From: Heterostelium album PN500
Taxonomy: Eukaryota > Evosea > Eumycetozoa > Acytosteliales > Acytosteliaceae
Assembly (NCBI RefSeq): GCF_000004825.1
Contig: NW_008805074.1
Span: 806,001 to 870,000 of the forward strand
Direction: 5' to 3'
Length of the DNA: 64,000 bases
Shown: piece after piece, positions 103 to 59,905 of the stretch
Position numbering within the stretch: the first letter of the stretch is position 1
Layout: the number at the start of each line of letters is the position of its first letter
Made by a program: the position numbers and the translations under genes
The notes under the pieces: generated by a model
The model's input: the letters and a program-made list of their open reading frames with translations, nothing else
Told to the model about the DNA's origin: nothing
The model's database searches: none

Positions 103-1467
103 TTAGTTCTCAAGAGCTTTGATTGCCATGTGCATAGCACCATCTTTATGTTTATGACCTCCAATGAAACCATTTGCGTCTATAATAATAATAATTAAAT
201 GAAATTGAATTAATAACTAATTGCTTGATAAAATATATGGTATATGTTGTTATCTTATCTTTGTAGGGAAATACTTTACGTGTGAATATACAACCATCGA
301 TTCCAATGATATCACTCAGTTCTTGATCACGTTTACCTCTCCATGCCTCTGGGAGTGCTTTTCTCAGTGTGAACGAACTGTTGTCGAGGTTGACAGCCTG
401 GATGCGCCACGATCCAAGATTATCTTCAAACAAACAGAAAAGAATGGACTTGTTGATGTTGTTGAGCTTCTCGAGGTGATAGAGGTGCTCTTTCCACGGG
501 CAGAACTGTCTGAGCACAATGAGTTGACCCGATGAATGAACTTCCTTACGAGTACGAAGTGCCTCTTCGACGATGGCACGTGCAGGCATCCAGCTCTTTC
601 CATAGTAATCGACCTTGTCATTGAAGGTTTCACCCATCAACGCCATTGCCTTTTCGAAACGCTCATAGAGCACCTGTTCCGATTGATCTTCATTCCAATA
701 GGGATTCATCGACGCAACTCGCTGACTGATTGTTGTATTCATCTTGTATTTAGCTTTGATTTCAGCTGGATATCTTTCGATTCCATTATCAACACCATCC
801 AACTCTTCAATAAACTCTACAAAATATTATTGTTAATATATAATGTAAATACTTTACTACTTTTTAATATTATTATTATTATATGTATATATATTACCAT
901 TATACATCTTTCTTATAGATAATATCAGTGATTTCATCATTTACTTTTAATCTATTCTTTATGATTTCTTTACCGTAGTGTCTAATGAATAATAATGATG
1001 ATGATTAATATTAATGAATTATTGCTAATTCTATAAATAATATATACTTATAAATTAAACCAGCACTACTCAATTTAATTTCATGATGATCATCAAAAGT
1101 CTCTGTGAAACCAGCTTGGTGATGATCGAATCTCAATTTAGAAAAATCATAGGTTGCACCGACATCAACTGCAACATCAGCTGCATTAATAACAGCGGTA
1201 TCTCTAGATCTAATGATTTCTATTAAATAAATAAATAATTGTTGTTAGTAAGTAAATAAATAGGTAAATTATAATTACAAATAATAATAATAATAATAAT
1301 AATGATTGATAATACAAACTTGCGTCTTTAAATTTATTTGTTTGTTTTAAAAGATAACATGCCAATGCTTCATCAGCGTGGAAAGTACCTGAATGTGTAC
1401 AAATGGTCAACTCTGTCATTATCGTTGTTTTTATATTATTAAATAATCTTAGATTCGATCTAAACAT
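103..1467 (-). CDS. myg1: MYG1-family exonuclease (UPF0160)
   Basis: MYG1 proteins are DHH-like metal-dependent 3'-5' RNA exonucleases found in nucleus and mitochondria (family knowledge). Exons 1320-1467, 1048-1219, about 906-981, about 280-814 and 103-179 give about 335 residues. The first exon holds the family motif CTHSGTFHADEALACYLLK; exon 2 holds DVAVDVGATYD and RFDHHQAGF; exon 4 holds the FIEELDGVDNGI block; the last exon ends in ANGFIGGHKHKDGAMHMA, the family's C-terminal signature. The ATG at 1467 adds a short basic leader (MFRSNLRLFNN) ahead of a second ATG (MTELTICTHSG), so two starts could give mitochondrial and cytosolic/nuclear forms (inference). The exon 3/4 junction is odd: the only phase-consistent splice drops the expected KMYNE residues. 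Divergent from the protease gene, with 173 bp between starts. Confidence 0.88.
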
Positions 1468-1640
1468 CAAACACCAAAATTATGTAATAAACAACCAACA
1501 AATTATTACATCCTTGAATGAGATCTTCAAATTTTTTTGAAAAAACGAAAAAAAAACATCATTTTTATTTTTTATCAGATTAATTAGATTCATTGTATTT
1601 ATTAATTACATATTTATAACAATTACAACAACGACTACAA

Positions 1641-4600
1641 ATGTTGTCTTTATTCTCTAAAGGACTAGTTCGTGGTCGTGTTGCTAGTAATACTACTGGT
1701 GTCAACATTGGTGGTCGACCAACAACCTCTATCATTAGATCTTATGCAACAACAACTTCAGAACAAAAACAACAACAACAAGTTGTTGGTCAAAGTTTAA
1801 GAGGAAAAGAAAGATTAAAAACAAATTTAAAGGTTGGTGATAAGCTGCATGGTTTCAGTGTGGTCAATGTTCAAGATGTACCGGAGAGACAGTTCAATAC
1901 GTTTAGATTGAAACACGATGTAACCGGTGCAGACTATCTACATATCGATTGTGAAGATAAGAACAATGTATTTGCTGTGACTTTCAAGACTACACCGTTC
2001 GATTCGACCGGTGTCGCTCATATCTTGGAACACACTACGCTGTGCGGCTCCAAGAAGTATCCGATGCGTGACCCTTTCTTCAATATGCTGAAGCGTTCAC
2101 TCAACACCTATATGAATGCCTGGACTGCACCCGACCACACTTCCTACCCGTTCGGCACACAACACGAGAAGGACTACTACAACTTGCTCTCGGTCTACCT
2201 CGATGCCACCTTCTTCCCGCTGCTGACAGAGTCGGACTTTCGTCAGGAGGGTCACCGGCTGGAATTCGAACAACTCGACAATCCAGAGTCAAAGTTGAAA
2301 TTCAAGGGAATCGTATTCAACGAGATGAAGGGAGCGCTGTCCGATCCATCGGGATACTTCTCAGAGATCGCTCAACAGAGTCTCTACCCGGGAACGACCT
2401 ATGCTCACAACTCTGGTGGCGATCCCAAGGATATTCCGGCGCTGAGTTACCAACAACTAAAAGATTTCCACGCCACTTACTACCACCCCTCCAACGCATT
2501 CTTTTTCACCTATGGTGATCTGCCTGTGGAGCAACATCTGCGCTACATCGAGGAGAACGCACTCCAACATTTCAAGTCACCGAAACAAGTCGATAGCAAA
2601 GTGAATCATGTACAGCGTTGGGACAAACCACGTCGTATTACCGTTACATGTCCACCGTCGGCAATGGATGTCAACCCAGAACGTAAACACAAACTGTCGA
2701 TCTCGATACTGCACAAGGATAATACAGATATCTTTGAGGGTTTGTCTATGAATGTCTTGTCGAATCTCTTGATTCGTGGATCTAATACACCGATGTATCA
2801 AGCATTGCTCGAGAGTGGATTGGCGCTGGACTACACTCCCAACACTGGATTCGACGATAACCTTCATGAGAGTAGTTTCGGTGTCGGTGGAACCGGTATC
2901 AGAAAGGAAGATCTCGAAAAAGTCGAACAGACTATCATTTCAACCATGGAGAAAGCATCGCGTGACGGATTCGATTCCAATGTAATTGAATCGATCTTAC
3001 ATCAATACGAATTTGGACAGAAGGATGTTTCGGCATCACTTGGTTTGAAGTTGGTCGGTGGTTTGCAATCCAATTGGATTCATGGTGGTAATCCAATTAA
3101 TCGATTGTTCCTCAATGAAAACATTGCTAGATTGAGAAAGGAAATTGCAGCAGGTCCATTCTTCCAAAATAAACTTAGACAACTCTTGGATAATCCACAT
3201 CGTTTGACCATTACAATGTCACCGGATGACACCCAACAAGCTAGAGAAGCCGCCGAGGAGGAGAATGTTCTCTTGGGAATCAAGAGCAGCTTGGATAGCA
3301 AACAAGTGGAAACCATTGTGGAACAAGCTAAAGATTTACAACAACGTCAGAGTCAGCAACAAGATGTAAGTAGTCTTCCGAAACTATCGATTTCCGAGAT
3401 TGAAAAGAAACAACAAAAGACACCGTTCATCGATGAGAAGATAGGATCGACTGACCTCAGACTCTTTGACTTCCCAACGAATGGTATCACCTATTTCCGT
3501 TCGATGATTGACATCTCCACACTCCCAGAGGATCTCAAGATGTATGTACCATTGTTTTGTAGTTTGTTCGAGTCAATGGGTGCAGCGGAACTCGACCACA
3601 AACAACTCGACACTGAAATCAATTTGTACACTGGAAGAATGAATGTATCACCAATGATTTCCACCTCACCTTTCAATTTGGATTTGGTTGCCGAACGTAT
3701 CTATATTAAATCGGCTGCCATCAATAGAAATATCGAAAAGATGTTTTCACTTTTGAAAAAAATGATGTTGGAAAATCGTTGGAACAATCCCGATCTTCTT
3801 AAGAATCTACTTGGACAAATGCAATCGTCGATGATCGAAGGAATCACATCGTCTGGACTGTCATATGCTCGTACCTATTCATCATCACAGTTCTCAAGAG
3901 CCGGTCAACTCAGTGAGAAATGGCATGGTCTTACACACGTTAAGTTTACAAACGACATCATTGCCAAGAATGATCTCAACGACATCATTGCCAAGTTGAT
4001 TGCCATCAACAAGTTTATCCTCGATCGTTCATTAATGAGATGTTCAATCACCACCGAAAAAGATACAACGGAGCTGGCAAAACAACAACTCTCAATGTTC
4101 CTCCAACAATTCAACGAGAATCACACATCGATGGTGAACAACGAATTCCAAAAATCCGACAACACTGGCTCTTCATTGCCACACTATTTCGCAATTCCAG
4201 CAACTGTTAATTATATCTCAAAAAGCTATCAGGGTGTCAACTATTCACACGAGGATTCAGCACGTCTCGAAGTTCTCTCAAAGGTTCTCTCAGAGTACCT
4301 ACACAAAGAGATCAGAGAAAAAGGTGGAGCCTATGGTGGAGGTGTATCGTATGCCAGTGGATCCATTGGATTCTACTCGTATCGTGATCCAAATCTTGCC
4401 AAGACCATCAATGCATTCAATGAATCGATTGAATGGTCACAAGACAAGATCACACTTGAAAACGTTGAAAATGCTCAACTCTCGATTTTCGCTGATTTCG
4501 ATGCACCAGAATCACCATCGAATAAAGGTGTTGCTGAATGGATGAGAGGTATTACAGATGAAATGAAACAACAGTAAGTTGAAAAAAAAAAAAAAAATCA

Positions 4601-8704: not shown

Positions 8705-11700
8705 CTATTTTTGTTGTTGTTGTTGCTTTAATTTATTGAACTCCCAGACTTCATTGAGCTTCTGTACATAGAATGATCTATTTGCATCTTTGCCAGATGT
8801 TTTAACTCCAATCTCTGACACCAATTGTTTGAGTTCTGCTAATGTCATACTTTCATAATCTGGCTTTTTAAATTTGCTATTTACTTTTTGTGAAGATGAT
8901 CCTGATGACGATGATGATGTTGTTGTAGGTTTTGGTGCTGATTGAGATAATGATGATTGTGAAGATTGTGATGAATTTGTAGTTGATAACTTTGATATTA
9001 GTTTTGATTGCTGCTGAATACTCTGGGAATGAGATTTAATACCCAATCTATGTGGAACCAATGCTGTTGAAGTTGGTGATGTAATCATTTTATCTTGACT
9101 ATAGGTTTTGGGTGTGTGTGTAGTTAAATTATTGGCCACTGTTGATATTGTTGTGGTTATTGTAGACGTCTTATTATTACTATTACTACTATTACTATTC
9201 TTATTCTTAATCTCTTTGATTTGCTCTGGTTCTGGTTCAGGTATATCACCTCCACCAAGCTCATAATCATCATCGTCATTGTGTTTATTGCTACTTTTAC
9301 TTTGATGCAAGCCACTTAGAAAATAACTACTACCACCACCATTCATAGGAGTATGAGGATATCCTCCTCTACCAAAACTATTATTATTGTTATTGTTGCT
9401 ATTACTATTTAAAGGTGTTTGTTGGTATCTATTATTTGGCGATGTAAATGCTGAAGTTGATGATGGTGTTCGATTTATATTATCTTCAATATCGAAATTT
9501 ATATTAAGAGGTGCTGTTAATGGTGTCAGAATAGGTGATAAGGGTCTGGGCAATGCATCTACCTTTGATGAACTAGGAAGTAAATTGGAAATATTGCTGC
9601 TTGTACTATTTTTACTATTATTACTATTATTATTATTACTACTGTTGTTGTTGTTGTTGTTGATGATGATGTTGTTGTTACTGTCAGCACTGATAGTTGT
9701 GTTAATACTATTATTACTACTACTGATACTGTTATTGACATGAGAATCAGAGGTAGCTGTAATGTTAACATGTGAGGTTGAAGGAGAAGGTGAAGTGCCT
9801 CTATACAATTGCTTGGCTTTGTCAATCTCCAACTCTCTGGTAATTGATGCACGTCCTACTTTCACATAATACTTATCTTCCAACTCTTTGAGACCTTTGT
9901 CAAACTCTTCTTTTGCCGCTGAACATACATTGTGAAATATATCATTGATAGACTTGATTGTATTGACTAACAATGGATTACTATTACTTTGTTGCTGTTG
10001 TTGTTGTTGTTGATTGTGTGATGGTATTTGATAAACTTGTTGCTGTTGTTGTTGTTGTTGTTTTTGTGAATCAATAGAATTTAAATCATGATTAGTTGCA
10101 ATCACTGGTGAATTTAATATAGGTTGTGGTCTATTGATACTTGAATATACATTGGAATCTAATGAAGATGTTGATGTTGTTGATGATGATAATGATGATA
10201 TTGTCGATAAATTACTATTATCATTAATTAAATTATGAGTTGTTGTTGTTGTTGTTTGTGCTTGTAATTGTTGTTGTTGTTGTTGTGCTTGTTGTTGCAA
10301 TTGTTGTTGTTGTTGTTGCTGTTGTTGTTTCTGTAATTCTTGTTGTATTCTTTGTTGTAATTGTTCTTGTTTTTGTAACTCTAAAGCGACTCTCTGTTGT
10401 TCCAATTGCTCTTTCTCCTGTTGCAATTGTATTTGCTGTTGTTTATGTAATAACTTGTCTCGCTCAAGCTGTTCACGTTCCAATTCACTCTGTCTTGCCA
10501 ACTCCAGTTGCTTGTTGATCTCCAAGGTTCTCTGATGATCAGCTTCTATTTTCTTTTCGATTGCCTTTTGCTCCTCCATCTCCTTTAACTTTCGATCCTC
10601 GCTCTGACTATCGTACAACTCCTTCGTTGTTTGATCTCTAAACTTATTGATATCCCAAATCGATCCTTTCGACGGTGTATGTCTCTTTGCCAATCTACTT
10701 TTAAACAACTTTGATTGATCGATTACACTCAAATCCATCGTATCATTTCCATTATTAACATAATCATTCTTATTGTTATTCTCATCATCAAAGCTAATGA
10801 ACGATGTTGGTGGTGGTGGTGGTGGTGAATTAGTTGATGTCGTAGTTGTTGTAGTAGTTGTTGATGCGGCTGCAGATGTTGTAGTTGTAGTTGTAGGGAA
10901 TAACATCTTAACAATATTAGCACTCTTTAATTTTAAGAAAAAAGATAATATCATATCAATAATGTTAATAATTAACTTATTTTTTTTAATTAGATAATAG
11001 TTAATATATATTTACATACTTTGAGAGGAGATTGTTTACATTTGAAACCAGCTAAATCATAGGGTGTAGATTGTGATGTTGAATTTGAACCATAACTATC
11101 TTTCTTTGATTGTTCGAGTGACTCTGACAATACCAATGCCAACTGCATGTCTTCATCTTCATCGTTGCCAACATCACCATTATTATTATTATTGTTATCC
11201 TCATAATAATCGTCATCATCTGAAGTTGGAGGTGTTTCCACTGTCTTTTTATTTGACTTTTTCTTTGTTTGTTGTTGTTGTTTTTGTTGTTGTTTATTTG
11301 TTGTTGTCGTTTGTTGTTTTTGTTGACCTGTTGTAGCCTGTTGTTTTTGTTGTGCACTCTTCTTACTCTTACTATTTATATTACCGTTACTCTTTTTACC
11401 ATTACCATCATTATTACCATCAAGAAAGAATGTAGATTTAACTCCACCCGTTGGTGTAGATGTAACCGTTGATACATGTCTATTTCTTGCTTTACTATTT
11501 GTATTTGCTTGTTGTTGTTGCTGTTGTTTTGGTGGTGAATTCGGTGGTGTAAGATTATAAGATACAATCGCTTTGTTATTGTCTTTATCCTTATCATTCT
11601 TGTTGTCTGTTGTTGTCATGGTAGTAGTTGTTGTCATTGTTGTTGTAGTTGTGGTGGATGAGGATGATGACGATGTTCGACGAGAGTTGAGTTCATAGAG

Positions 11701-12678
11701 TTCATTAAGTTCACGAGATGAAATGTTACGTTCTTTAGCACAAGATTTAATATGTGAGATACGTCCACTCACAGTCTTTGATATGTTCTGATAGCATATG
11801 AAACAAATGTCACCGCTGTCCATCTGCTTCTGTTGCTCCTCCGACGGTTGATTGTCACGACGTCTGTTCTTGGCGAGATGAGACGAGTTCTCGTTGTTCT
11901 TGTTACGTGTACACCGGTCGATGTGATCCTCGACTCTGGCAGCACTGTATTTCGTTATATCTTTCGAGCAGATGTAACAAACGATTGGTTGCGACCCTCT
12001 CAACTTATCCATACACTTGGCAACGTGACGATCTCTTTCCTCGTAGGTCAGAGAACCAAACGATATATTACAAATAGAACACTTGGTAGAGAATCCAACC
12101 GATTTATTGAATGTCTGTGATAATTTATTGGACTGTTTACCAACATTGTTTTGTTGTTGTTGTTGTTGTTGTGACGATGGCAATGACAAACTTGTACCAT
12201 TGTTGTTGTTGTTATTATTGTTGCTAGCATTCTCATTGTTATTATTATTATTATTATTATTGTTATTGTTATTGTTATTAACATTATTAATATTATTTAA
12301 ATGTTTATTGGTTGACATATTTTGAGCTTTATCTAATTGATCGAATATTACTAATCTTTTATCTCTAACTAGTTGTTGTTGTTGTTGTTGTTGCTGCTGA
12401 TGATTCATGTTATCATTATTATTATTATTTTTATCCATATCTATATCTTTATCAAGATTGGTATCATCATTATGATTGTTATTATTATTATTATTTTCAT
12501 TGTCTACTACGATATGAACACTAGCAATCTTAACATTTTCCTTTGCATTCTGTCTCTCTATTGAACGAGGTGATAATTGAGTAAGTTGAGAACTCTCCCA
12601 ATTATCAAGATCTTGATCACCACTAAGAAAGTCAATATCTTTAAAACTATTACTATCTGTCATATCATATCGTATCAT
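8705..12678 (-). CDS. slx4: SLX4-like structure-specific endonuclease scaffold with UBZ fingers
   Basis: SLX4 scaffolds SLX1 and other nucleases for Holliday-junction and interstrand-crosslink repair in the nucleus. Two exons, 11020-12678 and 8705-10924, give 1292 residues. Three Cys-x2-Cys...His-x3-Cys fingers of Rad18/UBZ4 type begin near residues 200, 234 and 292 (CSICNISF, CYICSKDITK, CFICYQNISK). An acidic block DEDEDMQLALVLSESLEQS resembles the region after the fingers in animal SLX4. The C-terminus (MTLAELKQLVSEIGVKT followed by RSFYVQKLNEVWEF) fits the SLX4 conserved C-terminal domain that binds SLX1. Long Gln, Asn, Ser and Thr tracts and a coiled-coil-like Glu/Gln region separate the domains. 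ATG 12678 is used; an internal ATG at 12663 is equally possible. The identification rests on domain order, not overall similarity. Confidence 0.62.
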
Positions 12679-13217
12679 ATACAACTATTTCATATTAATC
12701 TATCAATTATATAAGTACATAACATTTTAAAATTGATCAAGTATGTCTATGAAAATTCTTAATATCTGTTTAAAAAAAACGAATTTAATTTAATCAAAAT
12801 TCGAATTTCTTGGAATTGAAGTTAGATCTTCCTTTTTTTTAATTTCATTGTCACCAAAGAACAAAACATAAAAAATCAATGTTGTCTAGACAAACATTAT
12901 TTGAGAAATCTTAGTTTTTAATAATAAATCATAGATATTAAATGATTATATAACAAAAATAAATAAAATTATTATTTTTCTTTGGTTTAAAATATAATAA
13001 TAAATTAAAGATTAAACATGAAATTCAACAAAAAATATAGTTATTTTAATCTAACTATTATTATTCTTCTTTGTTTTAGTTATAAAAATAAATAAAGCAC
13101 TGAATGCATTTGCAAAATATTTTATTTTTAAATTTTATTCATAAAAAAAAAGGAATTTCCAAAAAAGGTTTGACCATTTTTTGATTGATTAAATTTTTGT
13201 TTGATCAATATAATAGA
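12679..13217. promoter_or_regulatory. Divergent intergenic region, slx4-like / eEF1G-like
   Basis: About 540 bp of very AT-rich DNA between two divergent starts. It must hold both promoters, but no distinct motif is visible. I specifically looked for coding exons of the missing eEF1G N-terminal domain on the plus strand and saw none. Confidence 0.5.
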
Positions 13218-20358: not shown

Positions 20359-23300
20359 CTATCTGTTCTCAATGAATTTTAACATTTCATTTAGTTCAGT
20401 GAATAGAGCCATCGATATATCGTTGTTATTGTTATCCAAGAGATCTTCGATGGTCTGGAATGTCTGATTCTTGTGATCTTCTAATATGAGTTGGTGTTGT
20501 TGTTCGTCGGTGGTGATCCTGACGACTAGATTCTCGATCCTGACTGCCCAGTCCGAGGTAAATGAATGATCCAGTACATAGAGATATTTGTTTGATATGA
20601 GTAGATGATGCAACTTTTTAGATCGGTCAAAGTAATCGAGATGCGCCTGATAGTATTCGTTGCAATTGACATTCTTGAGGGCGTATAGTATCTCTTGCCA
20701 GAACGATTGCTCCAAGTTGTAGGGCCGCAGTATATGATCGTACCCAATGAATCGAGGCGGTCGGAATCTCTGAGCCATAAGCGATTCCTCAGGGTTACGA
20801 TAGCTATTTCTCAGGCCCTGAGAGGACTGATTGACCAGGTCGATCACACCAACGCCCGTCTTGACAACGGCGCCAACCGCACCTTTCACCAGTCCCGGTA
20901 TGAAGCCGTCCAATAATCCATTTTCTTTGATCTCCTTGAATGGCTGTGAGATGATACCGGTCAAACCATTGCCGAGTCCCCAACCCAAAGACAACAATCC
21001 CTGCGAGAAAGTAGGTGGATTCTGCCTCATCTTTTTCTTTCGCATCTCTTGGTAGTTCTTATCCATTGCAAGCGGTGAAATAACATTACCGATGGAACCG
21101 GTAATCTTACTGGCAGTGTTAAATATACCAAAGATCGAACTCTTCAAGAGGTTTCCAGTGCCGTGAACAATATCGAGCATCGACGATGACTCTTTGATCA
21201 TATTGACACCACGTCCCAAGCTATTGGTCAGCGACATCGGTGCACCAAATATATCAGAATAAAGTATAACCTTTCCGAAATACCATATGAAATGATTGGC
21301 TAGCGATTTCACCAAACCATCAAAAGTAGTAAACTGATGTTCCAGTTTCCACGATTCCAAGTAGAGCGAAGCGTTATCAATATTAGCCAGTGCACTTCCA
21401 ACCGAGCCAATCATGGCACTCGAATATTCTGATGAACAATAGCTAAATCTAATTTGTATTGGTGGTAAAGATAGCAATTCAAAATACATTCTTTTAGAGT
21501 CAACTGTTTCTGGTACAGGTATAAACCCTCTGTAAATATAAATTAAAAATGTTAGAAACTAACTCTTTTTTAATTGTTTTTAAACTTGTAACTTACCTTG
21601 GAGATGATTTAGGTGGTGCTTTAAAGAATTCTATTGAATTGTAAAAAGTATACAAGTGGAAAAGTAATACTTCGTCGATCTGAACTTTGACTGGTTGAAC
21701 TTCGAATTTCAGAATCTTAATATAGTCAATGGTTGTTTTCTCCTCGGATTTATATTCATATTTGGTGGATCTTGAGAATGTTGCAGTGAGCATATTCGGT
21801 AGTTGACTGCTATTATCATTATCACTCTTGGAGTCTGTATATCTAGATATCATCTCTGGATACATTGTATAGTAAAGCTGATTGTCAACCTTGATGGAAC
21901 CAATCGAGAACTTGATATTCTGTTCGAATTCCATCGTATTATTAAATTCCAAAATGATATCTTTGAGAGTGACAAACATCAATTCCTTTGGTTCTGAATC
22001 GATGATCGACAATGAAATACCATCGAGCTCTGCACTGAACGATAAAAGTGACGTCGGTTGTTGATCGGTCATTGATTTGATCTGTTTCGATTCTAAATCC
22101 TCGTTGATTGCTTGATTCATATCGATGATTCTCAATACATTGGTCGGCCCATTTGCATAGATTGTAGTTTTAATCTTTGCAACATATCCAGAGTGTAGCT
22201 GAAACATATTACGTTAATTATTAATAACCATTTTCATTGTTAAATTTAAAAATACTATAGTATTTTACTTACTCTAACAGGTACAGCATTACTCGAAGTA
22301 TATAATTTATCCAATCTTAAACTCTTATAGAATTTGGTGTTTGGTATCTTGATTTCAAGTTTTTCTTCTAGTCTTGGATCGTCCCAGGTGTAACGAATGG
22401 TTTGTCCACTCTCCACTTGGTGAAGAATGCCAGTATCTGATTGTGAGATGGTGATTGGCATGGTCGTTAGATTCTCAATCTTGAATGGTGGACACTCTTT
22501 GGACTCTGGATTGAATATGATAAAGAAGTAACCTTTCTCTGATATAATTTGGACTAGCGGGAGGTAGAGGTTATCATCGGATTCCGGAGAGAGTGAACTT
22601 GAACTTGGTGATCCAGGATTATTCACTTTGTAGGTTGATAGTCTGAGATGGAACATCGATGATTTGGTGATGTGGAACGATCCACTCCAGCTGTTGGTTG
22701 GCGACACCCTGACATAGAGTTGCTGTGGCTGGTCCAAGTCGAGGAAGTGGAATGGAATGGTAGCGCCAGGCTCCAAGATGTAGTCACGATAGATGTCAGA
22801 GTCTCTTTGACTATAGTAAAGAGGGAAAGGAAGTTTGTTGATAAGTAGATACTTGGGTGTGATTGTGATCTGTTTGGTTCTAAAGAATTCTTTGCTGGTG
22901 GTGACGTTCGAACAGAGTTGCAAACTGATTCGCCTGTTATTCTGGAATTTAGTGACGTTGATATCGCTTGGTTTCGTAGAGTTGAGAGGGATCGGTCTGG
23001 ACAGGTCGGACTGATCGATCTTCAAGGAGAACGATTGATTGTGAACATATTTAACAGAGGAGAACATCAGTGGCGGTGGAATCGGTGAGGTGGAATCGTA
23101 CCAGGTTCGTGGATCTCGCTTGATGTCGACATGTGCTGCACTCGATGATCCTGGAATCAACTGATTTTGCTGGATCGTAGAGGTGTCGGTAGACGATGAA
23201 TTGGTGTTACAAAGCAGCGGTAATCCAGTCCTGTTTATCATCCAAAAGTCTGCATACAAACAAAGAGAAATAGTTCCCAAAATCTGATGATATTCCAACT

Positions 23301-26300
23301 TCATTGACAATCGATTCTTTTCGGCATCCAACAGCGTAATGGATTGTCCGTCAATATCTTTCTTTGTGGAGAGATTGATCTGGAAGAGATTCGACCATTC
23401 GTGATGTTCGATCTTGACACGCATCATTATGATTGCCTCTGTGTTGATAGAGTGGACGTTGGTAGATGCGCCACTGGCAATATTGATTTCGTCGACAATG
23501 TTGGAGGAGCGCTGATACTGTAGACGACACGATATCGGTGTTGCCAATGCATTTTCAATGACAAGTGGTGTTGTAATCTTAATGATATGATTGTTATCCT
23601 GGAGAATATCATCGAGATCGTCACGTTCTGCACCGGTATCATCTTCAGCAGCAGCCGCAGCAGCTTGTTGATTTGCAAAGAGATGTGTGTCTATTTGCAC
23701 CAAGAAGTAGTGTCTAGGTGGGAACTGTATAATCTTTATACTCGGACCTTTGTTGAATTCGATTTCTTCACTGGTTTGACGAAGTTCCGTGTCACAGAAT
23801 TCAAACTTTGGCAGTAGAGGTAGCTGTCCGTTGACTATCGCCAATGAGCTCGATTGTCTCGCGCCAATTGTCCTTATGTTTTCGCGAGTCGGCCACATAT
23901 ACTTCATTGGCTTGTAGGTATCATTCACCAACAAGTAATTCGATCTGATAATCAAAGTTCTGAATCTTGGACCGAGAATGATTTCATAAGCAATCTGTTG
24001 ATGTTGTTCCAAATGTGTTTCATATTCTTGTTGGTTGTTGTTGTTGTCGTTATTATCGTTGTTGTTAGTGTCAGAAGATGATGATAATGCAGTAGTATCA
24101 TTGGAGGATACCAAATCGAAAAAGTGAATTCCACTTCTATCCACTGGAAGATGACTGATTTGTCGCCAGCCAGGTAGTTTCAAGTTGAGACTGTAGGTGG
24201 AGATCGATGTTGCATCTCTGAATTTCTTTGGTGGTTCCTCAAGAGTAAATGCCACTTCATCGCCAGTCTCAACACACTTTGTTGACTGAGGAAGTAGTTG
24301 TTTCAACTCCTTCGATCGAATCGACCAATTCAGTGGCAATCCAGTGTCATTTCGAAGAACAAACAAGTTACCGGTGGTTTTGAATGGTTTGTTGGTGGGA
24401 ATTCTCGAGAGTGAAGATCCGCTTGCCAATCCTTTGAATGTTGTCCAAGATGTATATAATACATCAAAGAGTGCAGTTGAGAGATTAAGGTTAAGTTGAC
24501 GACTGGTGGTGAGAATTACTTTGTTCATGGTAACGTTGTTCTCCTGAGAATTCAGTAGACTCAGTTTGAATCCCCAATTCTCAATCAGCGGTTCCCACTG
24601 AGAGTATTGATTGTTAAAGTAGTTGGCCGCCACAAACATTGCAATAAACATCTTGTTATCGATCAACTCTAGCGAAATGTTTGTGAGCTTGACATCGATC
24701 ACACCATTATAACCTTTTCCGTCATCGATTACTGTGATCGATGCACTCGGTAGCTGAAGATTGATATGTGGTTTTGCTTTGCCGACAGAAGATGATTTAC
24801 TACCACTTCCACTCTTTCTCAGATTAGGCTGTTGTTGATGATGTTGATCTCTCGATGATAGTTTGTTTGGCAGAATGGATATTAACGATTGTGCAAGTGT
24901 CAAGATATTATCGTAGCATGCCATACAGAGATGAAGATCCTGGAATGAGAATGTAACGTGTATGGGATTGCCCGATACAATGATATCGAATGGCAGTGAA
25001 GGATTGTCGTTTCCTTCGATCTGTCCAATGGTGGCGGTGACAGAGAGCGGATCGATAATCGATATCGTCGTACTATCTACTTGATCCAACCTGCATTTAA
25101 ACAGCTCGAATTTATCAAAGCAGAAGTTCATATCAGTATAGGTGAGTTTCGATTTCATTATTGAAACTTTTCCAAGTACCGATCCCTTGACAATCAGCGC
25201 GCGACTATCGGATCTCGTAGGATTCTCGATGAGACATACTTCAACCTTGGTAGCTTCAATGTGGACAATGAGTTGAGGTTCTTTGATATCGTCGTTATTC
25301 GATTCTTCAAGCATGGTTTTCACAGGCGAAGAGTGTTCCTGGTCGAATTGCTCGATTAGGTGCTTGTCCACTGGGAGCAACAGAGGCGAGAGCACTGGCG
25401 ATTCAACCTCAGACAGCGAAGAGAGTGCAATGATACCTGGCATAATAAAGTCGATAATGGCAATGATTGATTCCGGTACGATGTTGGCGCGTAGATGGTC
25501 GAGTGTGATTTTCATCTCTTGGCAGCCATTGCGTTGCTCACAGAGATAGATAGTCAGCTCCTTCTGTTTATGTTCCTTAGAGTGATACAGCAGCTTCTTA
25601 AAATGATTGTCCGATGTTTTACGGGTGTCGATCAACTCGATGGAGCTCATCGACAACGTCGTATACTCGTTGTAATGAAGGTAGTCAATCATTGAGAAAT
25701 CCAACTGGTCTATCTCAAAACAGACAACGGATTCACGATTCTTTCTAAAGATTTCCAGTGAGATGTGTGGCAGCCGGAATGAGATTTGGTCTTTGATGTC
25801 GGAGCTGGCGGGCTGAGTGTCCAGGTTGTACTTCTCAAGTCGTTGGTAGGTGCGAATCTTTTTCTTTTTCTTCTTTAGATTCGGCTCGACCAGCGACTTT
25901 ATGATGGAGATCAACAGGCTGTATTGTTGGTCGGTTATCTTGATAGCGATTGGCGAGATCTCACCGAGTACCTTTTGTTTCGGTGAATGGATGCCAGGTG
26001 TCTCTACAAATGTTTCAATACAAATGTAGAGGTTGACCTGGTTCGACAGTTTCTCAATCGACTGATCCACCACTTTGCCAGCGTGATACTTGCACGATTG
26101 GAAATTTATGGACGATGCATAGATGTAGATTTCCTCGGATTGTATCGATGGATCCTCCAGGCAATTGGAGTAGCTGTTGAACAGTGAGATATGTCCGAGG
26201 TCGGCAATGATGACGTAGGGCGACACCAAGTTCTTTGGGAAGATGATTCGCGGTGTGTTGACGTCGATCTCAAACATGACACGCGATCTCTGGTGACTAT

Positions 26301-29300
26301 CGTGTATTCTCCCAACAGCGCCTTTCGCACTTTCGGATATCGACATCTTGTTGTTCATCACCTGTTCAAAGTCATCAAAGTAATCGACGAGCTTATCGAC
26401 GAGCGAGCGTATTACCACCAGTTTGACAGAGCTCATTCGCACACTGATCGTTGTGTCCAGGCTGCTGTCAGAGTAGCTGTGCACGTAGATCTCAACGATA
26501 TGCTCACCGTCGGTTCCAAACAACGGTCCCAAGTCACTGGAAGCATCTCTACTGATGTCTGTCACCAACAGATTGCCCAGTTTAAATCGCATCAAACTTG
26601 ATTCCAAATCGATATCGAAATTCAATTGCATCGATTTGATTTCAAACGCAAAGAATGCTTCGTTATCGTCATTCAAATGTAAGTTTAGTGATTTCATTTT
26701 GATGGAAATGACAATCTTTGGATTATTCTTATCGGCTTTGAATGTTTCTTTTCCACCTCCTGTATTCGATTGACTTTATAAACAGGTTTAGTTATTAGTT
26801 TGTTCAAGTACTTGGTTAACTTTAACTTACTTTGATTTTGAAATACTATTGTTGTTCATATTCCTACTCTTGGATTGAAGTAAATTCAATATTTTGATGG
26901 CAATCTTTTTGTTGAAATTAAAGAGAAGTGTGTTAAAGTTGATGTCAATCTGCTGTGAGATTCCGTTGTACTGAGGTGAGTTCTTTTGGATGGCAGAGAT
27001 TGACATGGAAATCAGATTCTCTTCGGAGCTCGGATGTGGAAGTGGCGATGAGTTGGCTATGTACTTGAAGGATGGATCTGTGAATTCCTGATAGAGATCT
27101 TCAATATACAGATGTTTGAGTGATAGCACTATCGATAAATCATAGGTTCTCTGATGTATCAAAGCACCGATATCAGAGAGAAACAATTTGACAAACGGTT
27201 TGTCATTCTCCACAATATTGAGAGTCACCGTTGGAATGGAGAATGATACTTCAAAGATTGTATTGTAGACCATCAGAATAGGTAGTTGGTCTTGAGGATT
27301 CAACTCCAACTGTTCAATCGTATTGATTAAATCAAATTGAGTTTCCTCTTCACTCCTGAATGCTGTTTCGGGTTTTGTTGTTGTTGATTGTTGTTTTTCC
27401 CCATTATTATCATTGTTATTATTATTGTTAATATCATTATTAGCATTATCATTGTTATCAGTTTCAGTTGTTTGATCATTCATACCAACTGTTGGCGTGG
27501 ATGTAGTTGGTTGGAGAGGAGTTGGAAGTGGTGGCATATCATTGGGAGCAATTGAATCGAATATACGAATTAACATTTCAATTGTCTCTTGTGACAGCTG
27601 AATATCCAGTGATGGCAAGTCACCAAATAATCTAGTAATTAGATATGTTTGTTGGTTAGTTAGTTTGATTATTATTCGATTTGAATATTCCAAGTTTACT
27701 TACTTTAATTTAGTTAATAAAGTTTGTGATTGAATTATACATTTATATATTGAAAAATTGATATCGAATCTATTTACAAGTGGTAGTGATTGTTTCTATA
27801 ATATTTTAACAAATAACAAACATTTAGTAAAGATTGTTTAAATATAGATATTTATAAACGAAAAGTACATACATTTGATATGATAAAGAATTGGATATTC
27901 TTTAATTGAAGTTCGTAGAGGTCATAGAGATACTTTGGTACACTATCATCTATTTCAGCACTACCACCAGCACTGCCACTAATTTCCCTTAAAAGATTTG
28001 AAGGATCCTTCACTTCATCTAAAATACCATTCTTGTGTCCATTATTATGACTGTTGTTACTTTCTAGTTTTGGACTGGAGTTGGCACTGCTATTATTGCT
28101 ACTCTTACCACTTTTACTATTATTATCAGCGTTAGTGTTAGTGTTGCCAATATTAATACTAATGTTGTTATTTTCATTATCAGCAATTCCATTACTACTA
28201 TTCTCACTACCAACACCATTATTGGTTTCTTTGTTGCTATTATCACTCTCTTTGATATTATTATCATTGTCATTATTGTTATTGCTCTCTTTATCACTGT
28301 TTTCTTCTCCCTCTTCTTGTTGTTGTTGTTTCTTTCTATTTAATATCTCTTGAATATCTTCTACTTCATGTTGATCGACATGATTATTATAATCTAGATC
28401 GTCATCGTCAATGTAGTAGTCTTCGATGTTCGAAGATTTGTTTGAACTGTTCAGTGAGAAAGAACCCAAGTCCAACACTAGTATCGGTGCGTCTGGATCT
28501 GAGAAGCTCTCGGGTACCAGAATATGTGGAGCATTGATATTGATATCCAGATCGACAGTCTTGTGATTCTGTAATTCATACTGAATCCTAAGTGTAGTCC
28601 TATCCTTGAATATCTTTATCTGATTCCTCGCTGCCTCCTCAATGTCCTTCAAAGTATTTGATGGTGCATTTCCAAAGAATTCCACTATTTATAATTTGAA
28701 CAATTAATTAATAACAACAAATAATAGCTATTAATAATAATAGTTATAAACTACTTACGAACAGAATCCAAAATAGATTTACTATATACAACTTCCAATG
28801 GAAGTGTTTCGATGAATATGAAATAGTTGGCGTCGGAGTTGAGTGGATTCTCTTGTATCCACATTTCAAAGAGTGGTTGTGTTTCGTTGGTGTCGTGATA
28901 GTCACTCAGCTCCGAACCGGTATCATCGGTTGCCTCTATTATAGAGGAATCATCATTGTTATAGCTACTAGTACTATTGTTATTAAATATACTATTACTA
29001 CTTGTTGAATTTGTAAAGTTTATATTATTATTATTATTACTATTATTGTTATTATTCTGATTATGATTATAGTTTACTAATGATGATTTTAATGGACCCA
29101 TTAAAATAGGATAAACTGTATTCTCAGTGAATCTATCTTCAACATGAATGGTCTCTAAAATAGTTTGAAAGTATAATGATTCAACAAATTTATCCAGTTT
29201 GATTGTCACATTGGATAAAACAATGACAACATCATCTCTCTTTCCACTCTTATTACTGTTATTGTTTCGTGCTAATCTAAGTGCAATAGATCCTTTTGTC

Positions 29301-54417: not shown

Positions 54418-56946
54418 ATGATGCAAAAAGAGGTTGTTACATCTTTGGATGAAGCTACTATAATTCGACCAATTGAAGAATGGATTAGATATCAAATCAA
54501 TGATAAAGCAGTTCCTGTATTCGGCTTGACCATTACCAATAGAGAGAAGACTCTTTATACCAAAGTTCATCATCATCCTGATATTAAAACACCAATTCCA
54601 TCTATTGACCGGTCACTTTTCAATGTCGCTTCGGTCAGTAAGCTGTTTACCTATGTTGCACTTCTTCAGTTGGTAGAACAAGGAAAAGTATCACTCAACG
54701 ACCTGATCACCAAGTATATGCCATCTAACTTTGCACCAAAGAATCCAGTCGATTGTGATCCAAGTGAACCACCACTCTACAAGCAGATCACCGTCTTCAA
54801 TTTGATTCGTCATACCTCTGGATTGATTCGTGAACCTCTGGAAGGCAATTACTTTAATGAACATCAATGTAATCTTCAAGAGTTGGTTGATTCAATGGGT
54901 CGATCCACCTTGGTAATCAAACCGAATACCTGTCACAAGTATTCGAATGCCGCTGTTGCCATGGTCGGATATGTCATCCAAGTGGCATCAGGCATGATAT
55001 TCGAAGACTATGTCCAACAGTTTGTTCTCGATCCCATTGGGATGACACACTGCACTTTCAAGGACATCTGGAACAACACTCGCTATTCCAACGACGATGA
55101 GATGCGTCTTTCAGTTGGTCATATGTGGCGCTACTGGGATGAGACAACCACCGACGTCAGTGTCTTCAAAGAAGCACCATTAACTCATTTCGGAATGAAT
55201 CCAGCCGGTGGATTGAAATGTACACTCTCTGAGATCAATCATTTCCTCCGAGTATTCTTGAATGGTGGTGCACCGCTCTTGAAGGAGAAAACCTTCCAAT
55301 TCATGATAACACCACAACCATTGTCTGGACCTGCAGCGGAACCAAATACTGACTACCACTACCATCCATCTGAAATGACACATGGATTGGGTGTTGAAAT
55401 CAACCAACTTTGTGGACTACTGTTGGCACGACATGGCGGCGCAATCAATGGATTCGCCAGTGAGTTCCGTGTTCTCCCAGAAATTGGTGTCGGTATCTAT
55501 GCTGTGGCAACACTCGACTGTAACAATACTCTCTCCACTCAACTAGTAGAATATGCTTACCATCATATCATCTCTCACTACTTCAAACCATCACCAGAAA
55601 TACCATATGATCCACTTACTTTGGTTACAGCAAAATCACATATGAAATCAGTGATTGAAAGTCAGTCGATTCCAAATGAGATTCTTGATCAAGCAATGGG
55701 ATATTATGTGCTTGATAAAGGTGATCCCAAGACCTATGACCTTCATCGTTTCAAAGTCTACCAAGAGTACAATCAGAAGCTCTTTATTAGAACTTCGTTC
55801 ATCTCGAAACTTTCATGGGCTAACTCACCGTATCATCCAGAAGGAATGCTTGTTACAAACGATCGTTTGTCATTTGGAGGTCAGTTGAAGCTATATACCT
55901 CGACCGATGGTAAGGATACAGCAATCGAATCATTCCGCCGTATAAAAGATATATCTGACAACAATCTGTTCTATCAACCATACATCCCATTGCCACCAGT
56001 CTCGTCGGCCCCACAGGAAATACCTCAATTCCTCAAGAAACTAGTTGGACACTACGAAGCCAAAGACCAACTTGCTCTGATCTTTGAGGACGATGGTACA
56101 TTGATGATTTGCATTGAATGGTTGTTTATCTACACATTGACATTCGTATCTGAACAACCAGGTTGTGTTGTATTCAAATTCGCAACGGATTCATTGTATA
56201 AAGATGAAAGAGTTACATTCTATCTAAACTCTGACAGTCGTCCTGAGAGACTTGAACTCTCTGGTATACCATTCTTCCACAAACATGTCGGTCCAATTCC
56301 AGGTCAGAGACAAGAGGGTGTATGTTCATCTGGGGAAGCTCAAATCATATTAGATAAATCATACTCTGTAACTTGTCCACACAAAGCACCTACATCACAC
56401 AGTCTTGTTGATCTTTCAACACTCTCACCAACACTTCTCACCGATGTAAAGTATGCGACAACCGACAACTTTTCTGGAATTGCATTGTATAAAGTTGCCA
56501 AAGCATATCTCCATCAACAAGCTGCTGAATCATTACTTCGTTGTCATCAATGGTTGGAACAATGGGGTGTTGGTTTAATTATCTACGATTCTTACAGACC
56601 ATGGAATGTGACTTGGGCAATGTCGGAATCAGTCAAACCTGAATTCAGAGGATTGTATGTTGCCGATCCAAATAAAGGATCTGTTCACAATCGAGGTGGT
56701 GCTGTTGATTTGACTCTCTATGATTTGAAAACTGGTGAAATCATTCCAATGCAAGGTGAATACGATGAACTCTCAATCAGATCACACAGATCATATTTCG
56801 GTGGAACATCAAGACAGAGATGGTTCAAAAAGTTATTGACCACTGCAATGATGAATCATGATTTCATTCCATATGAACAAGAATGGTGGCATTTCGATTA
56901 TAAAATATCATTCGATGTTTTAAACATTCCATTGGAAAATCTTTAA
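54418..56946 (+). CDS. Serine beta-lactamase-like hydrolase fused to VanX-type D-Ala-D-Ala dipeptidase (copy A)
   Basis: This intronless gene encodes 842 residues. Residues about 15-395 are a class C beta-lactamase/DD-peptidase-type serine hydrolase: SVSK (72-75, nucleophile Ser72), YSN (175-177) and HGG (339-341, in place of KTG). A linker domain (VGHYEAKDQLALIFEDDG) resembles the C-terminal beta domain of such hydrolases. Residues about 645-842 are a VanX/M15D dipeptidase: YDSYRPWN, zinc motif SVHNRGGAVDL (His757, Asp764) and EWWHFDY (catalytic Glu822, zinc His825). VanX cleaves D-Ala-D-Ala, and the N-terminal part would act on D-amino-acid peptides, so both halves suit peptidoglycan stem peptides. 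There is no signal peptide. The first ATG is followed by a second Met. A bacterial origin is inferred. Confidence 0.9.
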   Translation: MMQKEVVTSLDEATIIRPIEEWIRYQINDKAVPVFGLTITNREKTLYTKVHHHPDIKTPIPSIDRSLFNVASVSKLFTYVALLQLVEQGKVSLNDLITKYMPSNFAPKNPVDCDPSEPPLYKQITVFNLIRHTSGLIREPLEGNYFNEHQCNLQELVDSMGRSTLVIKPNTCHKYSNAAVAMVGYVIQVASGMIFEDYVQQFVLDPIGMTHCTFKDIWNNTRYSNDDEMRLSVGHMWRYWDETTTDVSVFKEAPLTHFGMNPAGGLKCTLSEINHFLRVFLNGGAPLLKEKTFQFMITPQPLSGPAAEPNTDYHYHPSEMTHGLGVEINQLCGLLLARHGGAINGFASEFRVLPEIGVGIYAVATLDCNNTLSTQLVEYAYHHIISHYFKPSPEIPYDPLTLVTAKSHMKSVIESQSIPNEILDQAMGYYVLDKGDPKTYDLHRFKVYQEYNQKLFIRTSFISKLSWANSPYHPEGMLVTNDRLSFGGQLKLYTSTDGKDTAIESFRRIKDISDNNLFYQPYIPLPPVSSAPQEIPQFLKKLVGHYEAKDQLALIFEDDGTLMICIEWLFIYTLTFVSEQPGCVVFKFATDSLYKDERVTFYLNSDSRPERLELSGIPFFHKHVGPIPGQRQEGVCSSGEAQIILDKSYSVTCPHKAPTSHSLVDLSTLSPTLLTDVKYATTDNFSGIALYKVAKAYLHQQAAESLLRCHQWLEQWGVGLIIYDSYRPWNVTWAMSESVKPEFRGLYVADPNKGSVHNRGGAVDLTLYDLKTGEIIPMQGEYDELSIRSHRSYFGGTSRQRWFKKLLTTAMMNHDFIPYEQEWWHFDYKISFDVLNIPLENL

Positions 56947-57367
56947 AATTAAATAATAAATAAAAAGAGATTAAGAAGTTCATTGTGTCTTCATTTGATT
57001 ATTTCTAATTTTACTGAAATTTAGTTAACTTTTATATATAATAAAGGTGGGGAATTTCAAAAGGGTGAAAATTATTTATTTCAAACAAGTATGCAATGAA
57101 ACCAATTTTTTTAAATAATCAACATACTTCCTTTTTAAAAATATTTTTGTTCTTTTCCATTTTTTTGAGTGATCCTCAAATAAATTTATAATCATATTTT
57201 TATTACCCACTATCCAATAATTCATTTTTTATTAAATTTTGATTGTACCTTTATCCCCACTATAGTTTAAAATCGTTGTTGAATTAATTTTATACACTAA
57301 TTAATTTCTTGAATTTTAATCATTTTATTCGCTAAAGGTTAATAACCAAAATTATTTATAGATAATC
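56947..57367. promoter_or_regulatory. Spacer between tandem hydrolase-VanX genes
   Basis: 421 bp of AT-rich DNA serving as the 3' flank of copy A and promoter of copy B. It does not resemble the region upstream of copy A, so the duplication left no obvious shared promoter. Confidence 0.5.
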
Positions 57368-59905
57368 ATGCAAAAAGAAGAAATAGTTAATTCTTTAGAT
57401 GAAGAAAGTATAATTAAACCATTTGAAGAATGGATTAGATATCAAATCAATGATAAAGCAGTTCCTGTATTTGGTTTAACTATTACCAATAGAGAAAAGA
57501 CTCTTTATACCAAAGTTCATCATCATCCTGATATTAAAACACCGATTCCATCGATTGACCGAACACTCTTTAATATTGGATCAGTTGGAAAGCTATTTAC
57601 TTATATTTCACTTCTTCAGTTGGTAGAACAAGGAAAAGTATCACTAAACGACCCGATCACCAAGTATATGCCATCTAACTTTGCACCAAAGAATCCAATC
57701 GATTGTGATCCAAGTGAACCACCACTCTACAAGCAGATCACCGTCTTCAATTTGATTCGTCATACCTCTGGAATTGTAAGAGAGCCACCTGAAGGAAATG
57801 GATTTAATGTTGTTCAATGCGAAATTGAAGAGTTGGTTCAATCGATATGTGACTCTACTTTAATCTATAGACCAAATACAACATTTAAGTACTCCAACAC
57901 TGCTGTTGCCATGGTCGGATATATCATCCAAAAAGTATCTGGAATTTTATTCGAAGATTATGTTCAAAAGTATGTTCTCGATCCAATTGGAATGACACAT
58001 TGTACTTTTAAAAAAGACTTATGGAACAACACTCGCTATTCAAATGAAGATGAGATGCGTCTTGCAGTTGGTCATATGTGGAACTATTGGGATGAGACAA
58101 CCACCGACGTCAAAGTCTTCACAGAAGCACCTATAATCAAGTTGGGCATGAATCCGGCTGGTGGTTTGAAATGTACACTCTCTGAGATCAATCATTTCCT
58201 CCGAGTATTCCTAAATGGTGGCGGTGGTTTAATAGGTGAGAAATCTTTCCAACTCATGATGACTCCTCAACCATTGTCTGGACCTGTCTCCGAACTACAC
58301 TCTGACTACCACTATCATCCATCTGGAATGACACATGGATTGGGTGTTGAAATCAACCAACTATATGGTCTACTTATGGCCAAACATGGTGGTGCTCTCT
58401 ATGGATTCGCCAGTGAGTTCCGTGTTCTCCCAGAGATTGGTGTCGGTATCTACGCTGTGACCACTCTGGACTGCACCAACTCTTTGGTCAATCAGTTGAC
58501 AGATGTTATTCTCCAAAGAATAATATCACATTACTTCCAACCATCACCTCGAGTACCCTATGATGTATTGGCTCTTGAAAATGCCCAACTACAAATGAAA
58601 TCAATTCTTAAGTGCCAACCTATTCCAAAAGAGATTCAGAATAGAGTTCTAGGATACTATAAGATGATTGACGGAATTCAGGAAAAAGATACTCACCACT
58701 ACAAGATCTACCAAGAGTACAACCAAAAGATTTACAGGAGAACATTTTTGTCTATCAATCTTTCGTGGATATCACCTGAGAATGGATCACCAATTCTACC
58801 AGAAGGAGCCCTAGTCACCAATGATAGAATATCTTTCGGATTGCCAATGAAATTAAAGATATCCAATGATGGAAAGAATGTTGCCATTTATACCTATGTT
58901 AGACAAAATGATATATCTGAAAACAATCTCTTTTACCAACCATACATCCCATTACCACCAGTTTCAAAACCACCAAATGATATTCAACCATTCCTCAAGA
59001 ATCTAATTGGACACTATGAAGCAAACCAACTTGCAGTTATCTATGAAGATGAAGGAACCATGATGATATGTATTGAGACACTTTTTCATTGCACTCTCAC
59101 CTTGGTATCTCAAAGAGATGGTCGTTTGGAGTTTAAATTCTCACCAGATTCAATGTATAATGATGAAAGAGTTGTATTCTATCTCAATTCATCGGGAATA
59201 CCTGATAGATTCGAGTTGGAGAGAATTCCATTTTATTACAAGCATGTTGGTCCAATTCCAGGTGAAAGACAAGAAGGTGTTTGTAGTCCAGAGGAAAGTA
59301 AGATCATATTAGATAAATCATACTCTGTAACTTGTCCACACAAAGCACCTACATCACACAGTCTTGTTGATCTTTCAACACTCTCGCCAACACTTCTCAC
59401 TGATGTAAAGTATGCGACAACCGACAACTTTTCTGGAATTGCATTTTATAAAGTTGCAAAGGCATATCTCCATCGACAAGCTGCTGAATCATTGCTTCGT
59501 TGTCATCAATGGTTGGCACAATGGGGTGTTGGTTTGATCATCTACGATTCTTACAGACCATGGAATGTGACTTGGGCAATGGCAGAATCAGTCAAACCTG
59601 AATTCAGAGGATTGTATGTTGCCGATCCAAATAAAGGATCTGTTCACAATCGAGGTGGTGCTGTTGATTTGACTCTCTATGATTTGAAAACTGGTGAAAT
59701 CATTCCAATGCAAGGTGAATACGATGAATTCTCAGTCAGATCACACAGATCATATTTCGGTGGAACATCAAGACAGAGATGGTTCAAAAAGCTATTAACA
59801 ACGGCGATGATGAATCATGATTTCATTCCAAATAAATCAGAATGGTGGCATTTCGATTATAAAATATCATTCGATGTTTTAAACATTCCATTGGAAAATC
59901 TTTAA
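57368..59905 (+). CDS. Serine beta-lactamase-like hydrolase fused to VanX-type dipeptidase (copy B)
   Basis: This tandem paralogue of the preceding gene, 845 residues and also intronless, keeps every expected active-site residue. SVGK (72-75) replaces SVSK, YSN is in FKYSNTAVAM, and the third motif is HGG in AKHGGALYG. The VanX zinc motif is SVHNRGGAVDL (His760, Asp767), with EWWHFDY (Glu825, His828). The VanX halves of the two copies are about 97% identical in DNA by eye, and so is a stretch near the start. The linker region is much more diverged, which indicates gene conversion or selection. It ends 22 bp before the stop of the convergent phosphatase gene, so transcripts probably overlap. 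Confidence 0.9.
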   Translation: MQKEEIVNSLDEESIIKPFEEWIRYQINDKAVPVFGLTITNREKTLYTKVHHHPDIKTPIPSIDRTLFNIGSVGKLFTYISLLQLVEQGKVSLNDPITKYMPSNFAPKNPIDCDPSEPPLYKQITVFNLIRHTSGIVREPPEGNGFNVVQCEIEELVQSICDSTLIYRPNTTFKYSNTAVAMVGYIIQKVSGILFEDYVQKYVLDPIGMTHCTFKKDLWNNTRYSNEDEMRLAVGHMWNYWDETTTDVKVFTEAPIIKLGMNPAGGLKCTLSEINHFLRVFLNGGGGLIGEKSFQLMMTPQPLSGPVSELHSDYHYHPSGMTHGLGVEINQLYGLLMAKHGGALYGFASEFRVLPEIGVGIYAVTTLDCTNSLVNQLTDVILQRIISHYFQPSPRVPYDVLALENAQLQMKSILKCQPIPKEIQNRVLGYYKMIDGIQEKDTHHYKIYQEYNQKIYRRTFLSINLSWISPENGSPILPEGALVTNDRISFGLPMKLKISNDGKNVAIYTYVRQNDISENNLFYQPYIPLPPVSKPPNDIQPFLKNLIGHYEANQLAVIYEDEGTMMICIETLFHCTLTLVSQRDGRLEFKFSPDSMYNDERVVFYLNSSGIPDRFELERIPFYYKHVGPIPGERQEGVCSPEESKIILDKSYSVTCPHKAPTSHSLVDLSTLSPTLLTDVKYATTDNFSGIAFYKVAKAYLHRQAAESLLRCHQWLAQWGVGLIIYDSYRPWNVTWAMAESVKPEFRGLYVADPNKGSVHNRGGAVDLTLYDLKTGEIIPMQGEYDEFSVRSHRSYFGGTSRQRWFKKLLTTAMMNHDFIPNKSEWWHFDYKISFDVLNIPLENL

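Follow-up and report, generated by a model that had tools for sequence, protein, structure and literature searches.

Tandem genes of Heterostelium album encode a serine hydrolase-VanX fusion that was most likely acquired from bacteria as a finished fusion

We analysed a pair of tandem genes in the social amoeba Heterostelium album PN500 that encode a serine hydrolase of family S12 joined through a linker to a VanX-type D-Ala-D-Ala dipeptidase of family M15. The genes lie in a stretch of 64,000 nucleotides (the window) corresponding to bases 806001-870000 of the 1.02-Mb contig NW_008805074.1. The genome comprises 32.9 Mb in 39 contigs; positions given below are those of the window unless a bacterial locus is named. 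Two uninterrupted ATG-to-stop open reading frames (ORFs) are arranged head to tail on the plus strand at 54418-56946 (copy 1, 842 amino acids) and 57368-59905 (copy 2, 845 amino acids), and their architecture was assigned by Pfam, alignment and profile comparison. The two proteins are 77% identical, and in both PF00144 is followed by PF01427 with scores above the cut-off of 27 bits. In copy 1, the serine-hydrolase domain covers residues 23-366 (54484-55515; E 3.6e-44, 151.7 bits), a middle region covers residues 379-652 (55552-56373), and the VanX-type domain covers residues 661-827 (56398-56898; E 5e-27, 95.4 bits). The corresponding parts of copy 2 are residues 21-374 (57428-58489; E 7.5e-46, 157.3 bits), a middle region at 58502-59335, and residues 664-830 (59357-59857; E 2.4e-26, 93.2 bits). 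Within the whole genome PF01427 occurs at these two places only, while two of the ten stretches matching PF00144 are the genes described here.

Both copies retain all 12 catalytic positions checked. The S12 half carries SVSK in copy 1 and SVGK in copy 2, followed in each by YSN and HGG, so that S72/K75, Y175-N177, H339 and G341 are present in both proteins. The VanX part of either copy contains SVHNRGGAVD and EWWH; in the numbering of copy 1 these parts include R727, H757, D764, E822 and H825, and by analogy with VanX we take H757, D764 and H825 to be the zinc ligands, E822 the catalytic glutamate and R727 the catalytic-site arginine. The middle region has no Pfam match in the amoeba, and two bacterial homologues gave a match to DUF3471 below the cut-off. 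In a single AlphaFold2 model computed from nine sequences (mean predicted local distance difference test score 71.2, predicted template modelling score 0.62), this region consists mostly of strands.

The first-pass annotation, which was made from the sequence without database searches, had described two intact, intronless fusion genes that lack a signal peptide and stand among intron-rich genes. Integrity was borne out by the domains and residues listed above, and absence of introns by bacterial proteins that align through the whole ORF. The surroundings may well be intron-rich, as the gene upstream of the pair falls apart into several ORFs. The claim on the signal peptide held: hydropathy revealed no hydrophobic leader in either copy, and the possibility of a hidden spliced leader exon was rejected when a simple scan upstream of the copies found none that could be spliced. 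A leader-like start, of either signal or lipoprotein type, was assigned by a simple hydropathy rule to 42 of 54 bacterial fusions and to neither of the two amoeba copies; the bacterial count takes in the divergent fusion L072 described below and frames whose true start is uncertain. The missing leader suggests a cytosolic location for the amoeba proteins.

A reading of the fusion itself as special to the eukaryote is not supported, as the same architecture occurs in three or more bacterial phyla. Scanning genome contigs yielded ten loci, among them L003 from a Gemmata metagenome-assembled genome, where an 803-amino-acid ORF matches residues 19-842. Surveys of five phyla were made with a nine-row profile (A1) that included both amoeba proteins; they scored only a few best candidates per genome, and the counts are lower bounds. 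Among planctomycetes, 21 of 392 genomes gave single matches over both halves and three more gave matches in pieces at one place (at least 24/392). The Gemmatimonadota, the phylum of L004, contributed 33 of 200 genomes plus one with two pieces of one open frame (at least 34/200), and the Bacteroidota, the phylum of L008, at least 10 of 345. No match over both halves was obtained in 398 genomes of Pseudomonadota (the phylum of L005) or in 128 genomes of the phylum of L006. Three of the survey matches carry a stop by count. Of 54 bacterial fusions, 53 have the same catalytic residues as the amoeba copies.

A profile of 48 bacterial fusions, obtained by removing the amoeba rows from an alignment (A2) that had been built together with them and that omits L072 and five near-copies, matched copy 1 over residues 5-840 with 549.8 bits (E 5.6e-163) and copy 2 over residues 5-843 with 538.2 bits (E 1.8e-159), the E-values being set for a million sequences. 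When parts of the middle region were used alone, with bacterial rows only, the second part matched copy 1 with 51.8 bits and copy 2 with 31.8 bits; for the first part no match was listed. Copy 1 scored 192-210 bits against ten random six-sequence profiles of fusion VanX domains and 99 bits against one six-sequence profile of ordinary VanX. On these sequence comparisons the amoeba fusion belongs to a common bacterial family of at least three phyla and is no eukaryotic novelty, and a bacterial ancestry of the whole architecture is well supported.

Some members of this family depart from the common form. L072 from Bacteroidota (about 1459-3729) is a full-length fusion in which 8 of the 12 checked positions, distributed over both halves, are changed; it is possibly a non-enzymatic member. 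The planctomycete loci L033, L036 and L040 have an extra S12 domain in front (S12-S12-linker-VanX), and a separate S12 gene of the amoeba, L025, which is partial in the tree, groups on a long branch with this extra domain (support 100/94). Frames of about 350 amino acids with a fusion-type VanX domain and no S12 half occur at L073, L074 and L079; in L074 and L079 a piece resembling the second part of the linker was found.

Trees were calculated for the full-length proteins and for each half. Duplicate loci (L001, L002, L013, L017-L024) were removed from all of them, and the half trees were also made without L027-L031, L054 (frame broken), L078, L007 (VanX match in two pieces), 13 near-relatives and matches below 120 profile positions, owing to which L025 entered as a partial domain. 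The full-length tree (56 rows) joined the amoeba pair at 100/100. In the S12 tree (59 rows) the amoeba domains fell inside a clade of fusion S12 domains (99/95), and their exact place is unsure because a long-branched S12 protein adjoins them. The VanX tree (66 rows) placed the amoeba together with VanX rows of the fusion type, 41 from fusions and 16 stand-alone, and apart from seven other VanX rows (98/98); within the fusion-type group it stands at the base. Two other S12 genes of the amoeba did not group with its fusion S12 domain. This answers in part the earlier proviso that the halves might group with ordinary eukaryotic proteins, the comparison with eukaryotes being confined to the S12 genes of this one genome.

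Taken together, these data indicate that the gene was most likely acquired from bacteria as a finished fusion, since the fusion is spread in bacteria and the 48-row profile matches the proteins over nearly their full extent. That transfer went from bacteria to amoeba is suggested by a family spanning three bacterial phyla and by S12 and M15 being mainly bacterial families. An assembly of the fusion within the amoeba had been considered; the discovery of L003, followed by that of dozens of other bacterial fusions, led to its rejection. Other searches addressed the route of transfer: one scan of viral contigs gave two pattern matches and no relative, none of 1220 plasmid records with a match covered 80% of the query, and none of 112 genomes of Legionella kin reached E 1e-60, a result that is uninformative by itself. 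Duplication most likely followed acquisition. Bacterial origin and duplication had both been proposed in the first-pass annotation and are upheld by the fusions in three phyla, the profile match and the two tandem copies; its view of the product as a probable D-peptide hydrolase likewise finds support in the domains, the catalytic residues and the bacterial relatives.

Divergence between the copies is uneven along their length. Nonsynonymous and synonymous substitutions per site (dN and dS, NG86) were 0.159 and 0.575, values that reflect constraint, and of 840 aligned codons 196 encode different amino acids. Over the final 204 codons, synonymous differences were counted at 12 of 192 amino-acid-identical codons, compared with 139 of 452 before this point, and none of 20,000 shuffles gave a value as low. 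This indicates that the VanX ends of the tandem copies were homogenised by domain-limited gene conversion; the tract covers approximately 56326-56946 of the plus strand in copy 1, with its partner at about 59285-59905 in copy 2. Between the copies, divergence is greater in the S12 half and the linker than in the VanX part. Because synonymous divergence is low as well, the low divergence of the VanX part is attributed to gene conversion more than to constraint. The GC content at third codon positions (GC3) is 0.36 in copy 1 and 0.31 in copy 2, and ranges from 0.33 to 0.51 in four other genes of the window.

The bacterial gene context was surveyed at 55 fusion loci and their flanks, of which 24 are from planctomycetes, 21 from gemmatimonadotes and 10 from Bacteroidota. 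A conserved neighbourhood was rejected, no single neighbour being general. In four of the 24 planctomycete loci (L110, L127, L133 and L134, of which L133 and L134 are close relatives) a DgcN-like and a DgcA-like gene stand upstream of the fusion on the same strand; the pair directly precedes the fusion in L127, L133 and L134, and in L110 one gene separates them. NCBIfam supplied the names in L110, L127 and L133, and for L134 the assignment is based on identities of 58% and 61% to L110. The intervening gene of L110 encodes an amidohydrolase fused to S12 (NCBIfam PRK09061 type), and similar amidohydrolases near the fusion in L124 and L152 bring the total to 3 of 55 loci; we take this type to be D-aminoacylase-like. 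The resulting one-strand order of DgcN-like gene, DgcA-like gene, amidohydrolase-S12 gene (L110 only) and fusion makes these four loci a candidate D-amino-acid catabolic operon. Further neighbours are a diaminopimelate decarboxylase that scores above its cut-off and adjoins the fusion in L117 (1 of 55 loci), an amino acid permease adjoining it in L118, and a DgcA-like gene on the opposite strand in L145. D-Glu and diaminopimelate are peptidoglycan amino acids. NCBIfam names DgcA for N-acetyl-D-Glu. The DgcN-DgcA context is a lead that would point towards catabolism of cell-wall D-peptides.

Among the best 60 of 146 solved relatives found by profile, the S12 half matched a 'Pbp related beta-lactamase' (2qmi), IS11, Flp, a beta-lactamase family protein, a carboxylesterase, an alkaline D-peptidase and DD-carboxypeptidases, and the VanX half matched VanX (1r44). 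No solved chain covering both halves was present among the 60 entries listed in each of two profile searches. From these data we consider it probable, though by no means assured, that the genes encode a captured bifunctional D-peptide hydrolase which acts in the cytosol and serves feeding. The gene structure, the intact catalytic residues, the same architecture in bacteria, the missing leader, the duplication and the constraint are established. For the direction of transfer, the substrates, the order of the two steps, the location and the benefit we infer the following course. The product would be a two-activity enzyme inherited from bacteria as a finished fusion. The SxxK serine of its S12 half would form an acyl-enzyme on peptides with D-residues (or on amides or esters) and release short D-amino-acid peptides, and the VanX half, as a zinc dipeptidase, would split a dipeptide of the D-Ala-D-Ala type into free amino acids. 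The bacterial form would mostly be exported or lipid-anchored and scavenge D-peptides of cell walls. In the amoeba, lacking a leader, it would most likely be cytosolic and act on D-peptides leaving the digestive vacuoles, so that bacterial wall peptides could be used as food. A further version, which we hold to be less likely than not, is a so far undescribed enzyme dedicated to bacterial cell-wall D-peptide catabolism, linked in some planctomycetes to D-glutamate use of the DgcN-DgcA kind, captured whole by a bacterivorous amoeba and moved from the exterior to the cytosol, where it would convert exported muropeptides to free D-amino acids in two self-contained steps.

Several observations weigh against parts of this interpretation. 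In the full-length tree a branch of length 3 sets the amoeba pair apart from the bacterial fusions sampled, so that this tree assigns no donor phylum, and the 48-row profile derives from an alignment that had included the amoeba proteins. In an approximately unbiased (AU) test, placement of the amoeba with six of the seven other VanX rows was not rejected (p-AU 0.141). The VanX tree was discarded as proof of a common fusion, being too weak alone, and the claim that the fusion arrived whole rests on colinearity and the middle region instead. With regard to function, the carboxylesterase scored 139.1 bits against 138.5 for the alkaline D-peptidase, and S12 folds include esterases and amidases. 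NCBIfam equivalog cut-offs were missed by the VanX half (VanX, 83.5 of 320 bits; PRK10178, the DdpX-type D-alanyl-D-alanine dipeptidase, 124.2 of 176). In the bacterial loci, DgcA, DgcN and amidohydrolase scores lie below their NCBIfam cut-offs, and the enolase-type neighbours of L124, L151 and L152 are menC-like. Neighbours of unrelated role also occur, such as genes of the cysteine synthase and MacB/FtsX permease types (L119), an alpha-amylase (L112) and an oxidoreductase (L111); the DgcN-DgcA pair and the other neighbours cover a minority of loci, as raw counts without a background rate.

Two alternatives concern what the protein does, and we regard either as rather unlikely. The enzyme might keep D-Ala-D-Ala or muropeptide fragments low in the cytosol, as detoxification or control of signalling, or might destroy D-peptide antibiotics of the prey. 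The cytosolic location suggested by the missing leader and the fit of the S12 and VanX folds to D-peptides would suit this, as would the permease gene next to the fusion in L119. However, most bacterial relatives look exported and some stand beside D-Glu- or diaminopimelate-type catabolic genes, which points to feeding rather than detoxification. Alternatively, the S12 half could have turned by drift into an esterase or amidase or have taken on a lipid-linked role, leaving the VanX half alone to act on D-dipeptides. Such a drift would agree with the esterases among the best solved matches and with the greater divergence of S12 and linker between the copies, but both copies and 53 of the 54 bacterial fusions retain the S12 catalytic residues, and the contrast with the VanX part arises from gene conversion more than from constraint.

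The remaining alternatives concern how the genes came about. That two separately acquired genes were joined independently in the amoeba is very improbable: the basal position of its VanX half, the AU result and the unmatched first part of the middle region would allow it, whereas the colinear match over the whole length, the scores of the second part of the middle region and the position of the S12 half inside the fusion clade argue for a common fusion. Least credible of all is contamination or an assembly artefact. The data come from a single assembly; on the other hand, the contig measures 1.02 Mb, the flanking ORFs match models of CNH and of the purple acid phosphatase N-domain, with VPS13 further away, and such eukaryotic-type neighbours make contamination unlikely, as does the low GC3. 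Copies that differ in amino acid at 196 of 840 codons are not one stretch assembled twice. Contamination was rejected on these grounds, and the artefact that the first-pass annotation had named as a possible refutation was not borne out. We therefore retain the captured, finished fusion as the preferred explanation. If its proposed function holds, it would help to account for how a bacterivore draws on the D-amino-acid fraction of its prey, and it would give a common bacterial family, for which no description was found in the literature searched, a role in the use of peptidoglycan-derived D-peptides.

Elsewhere in the window, two long adjacent ORFs (749 and 564 amino acids) at 8705-12684 on the minus strand lie where AT skew is strong and have no Pfam match at E 0.001. 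Long uninterrupted stretches match the PreP-type M16 peptidase model (1641-4577, plus strand) and the VPS13 model (22255-26697, minus strand).

Several known systems can be compared with the amoeba proteins. VanX is a zinc-dependent D-Ala-D-Ala dipeptidase, as stated in PMC6403190. The PF01427 fold, the zinc ligands and the catalytic Glu and Arg are common to VanX/DdpX (peptidase M15) and the amoeba proteins, in which VanX is part of a larger protein. With the S12 family (AmpH, DD-carboxypeptidase, alkaline D-peptidase, LACTB) they have SxxK, YSN and HxG in common, but they reach the cut-off of none of the S12 models that appear in the 25 NCBIfam matches listed (AmpH, 56.6 of 266 bits; class C beta-lactamase equivalog, 45.7 of 415). 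The bacterial S12-linker-VanX fusions such as L003 have the same order of parts, colinearity throughout and 29-36% identity to copy 1. The amoeba copies differ from them by insertions near residues 110-120, 215-225 and 305-320 and in the middle region, and by the absence of the leader-like start and of the additional S12 domain seen in three bacterial fusions. Searches of open-licence literature for Dictyostelium with VanX or D-Ala-D-Ala dipeptidase found no paper, and a search combining VanX, Planctomycetes and serine hydrolase found none on such a fusion among the titles and the beginnings of abstracts listed. A dipeptidase of Dictyostelium discoideum is presumably of the Peptidase_M15/VanX type. 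It has already been reported as a bacterial-derived wall degrader, according to PMC4958254; the present work extends this older remark on a social amoeba to a proposed two-step enzyme that can be tested, with bacterial relatives and a genomic context. Two further papers describe other wall-degrading enzymes acquired by a protist (PMC4967989) and list vanX among the peptidoglycan genes analysed in Cyanophora (PMC6704402), so that the amoeba is not the only eukaryote with a VanX gene.
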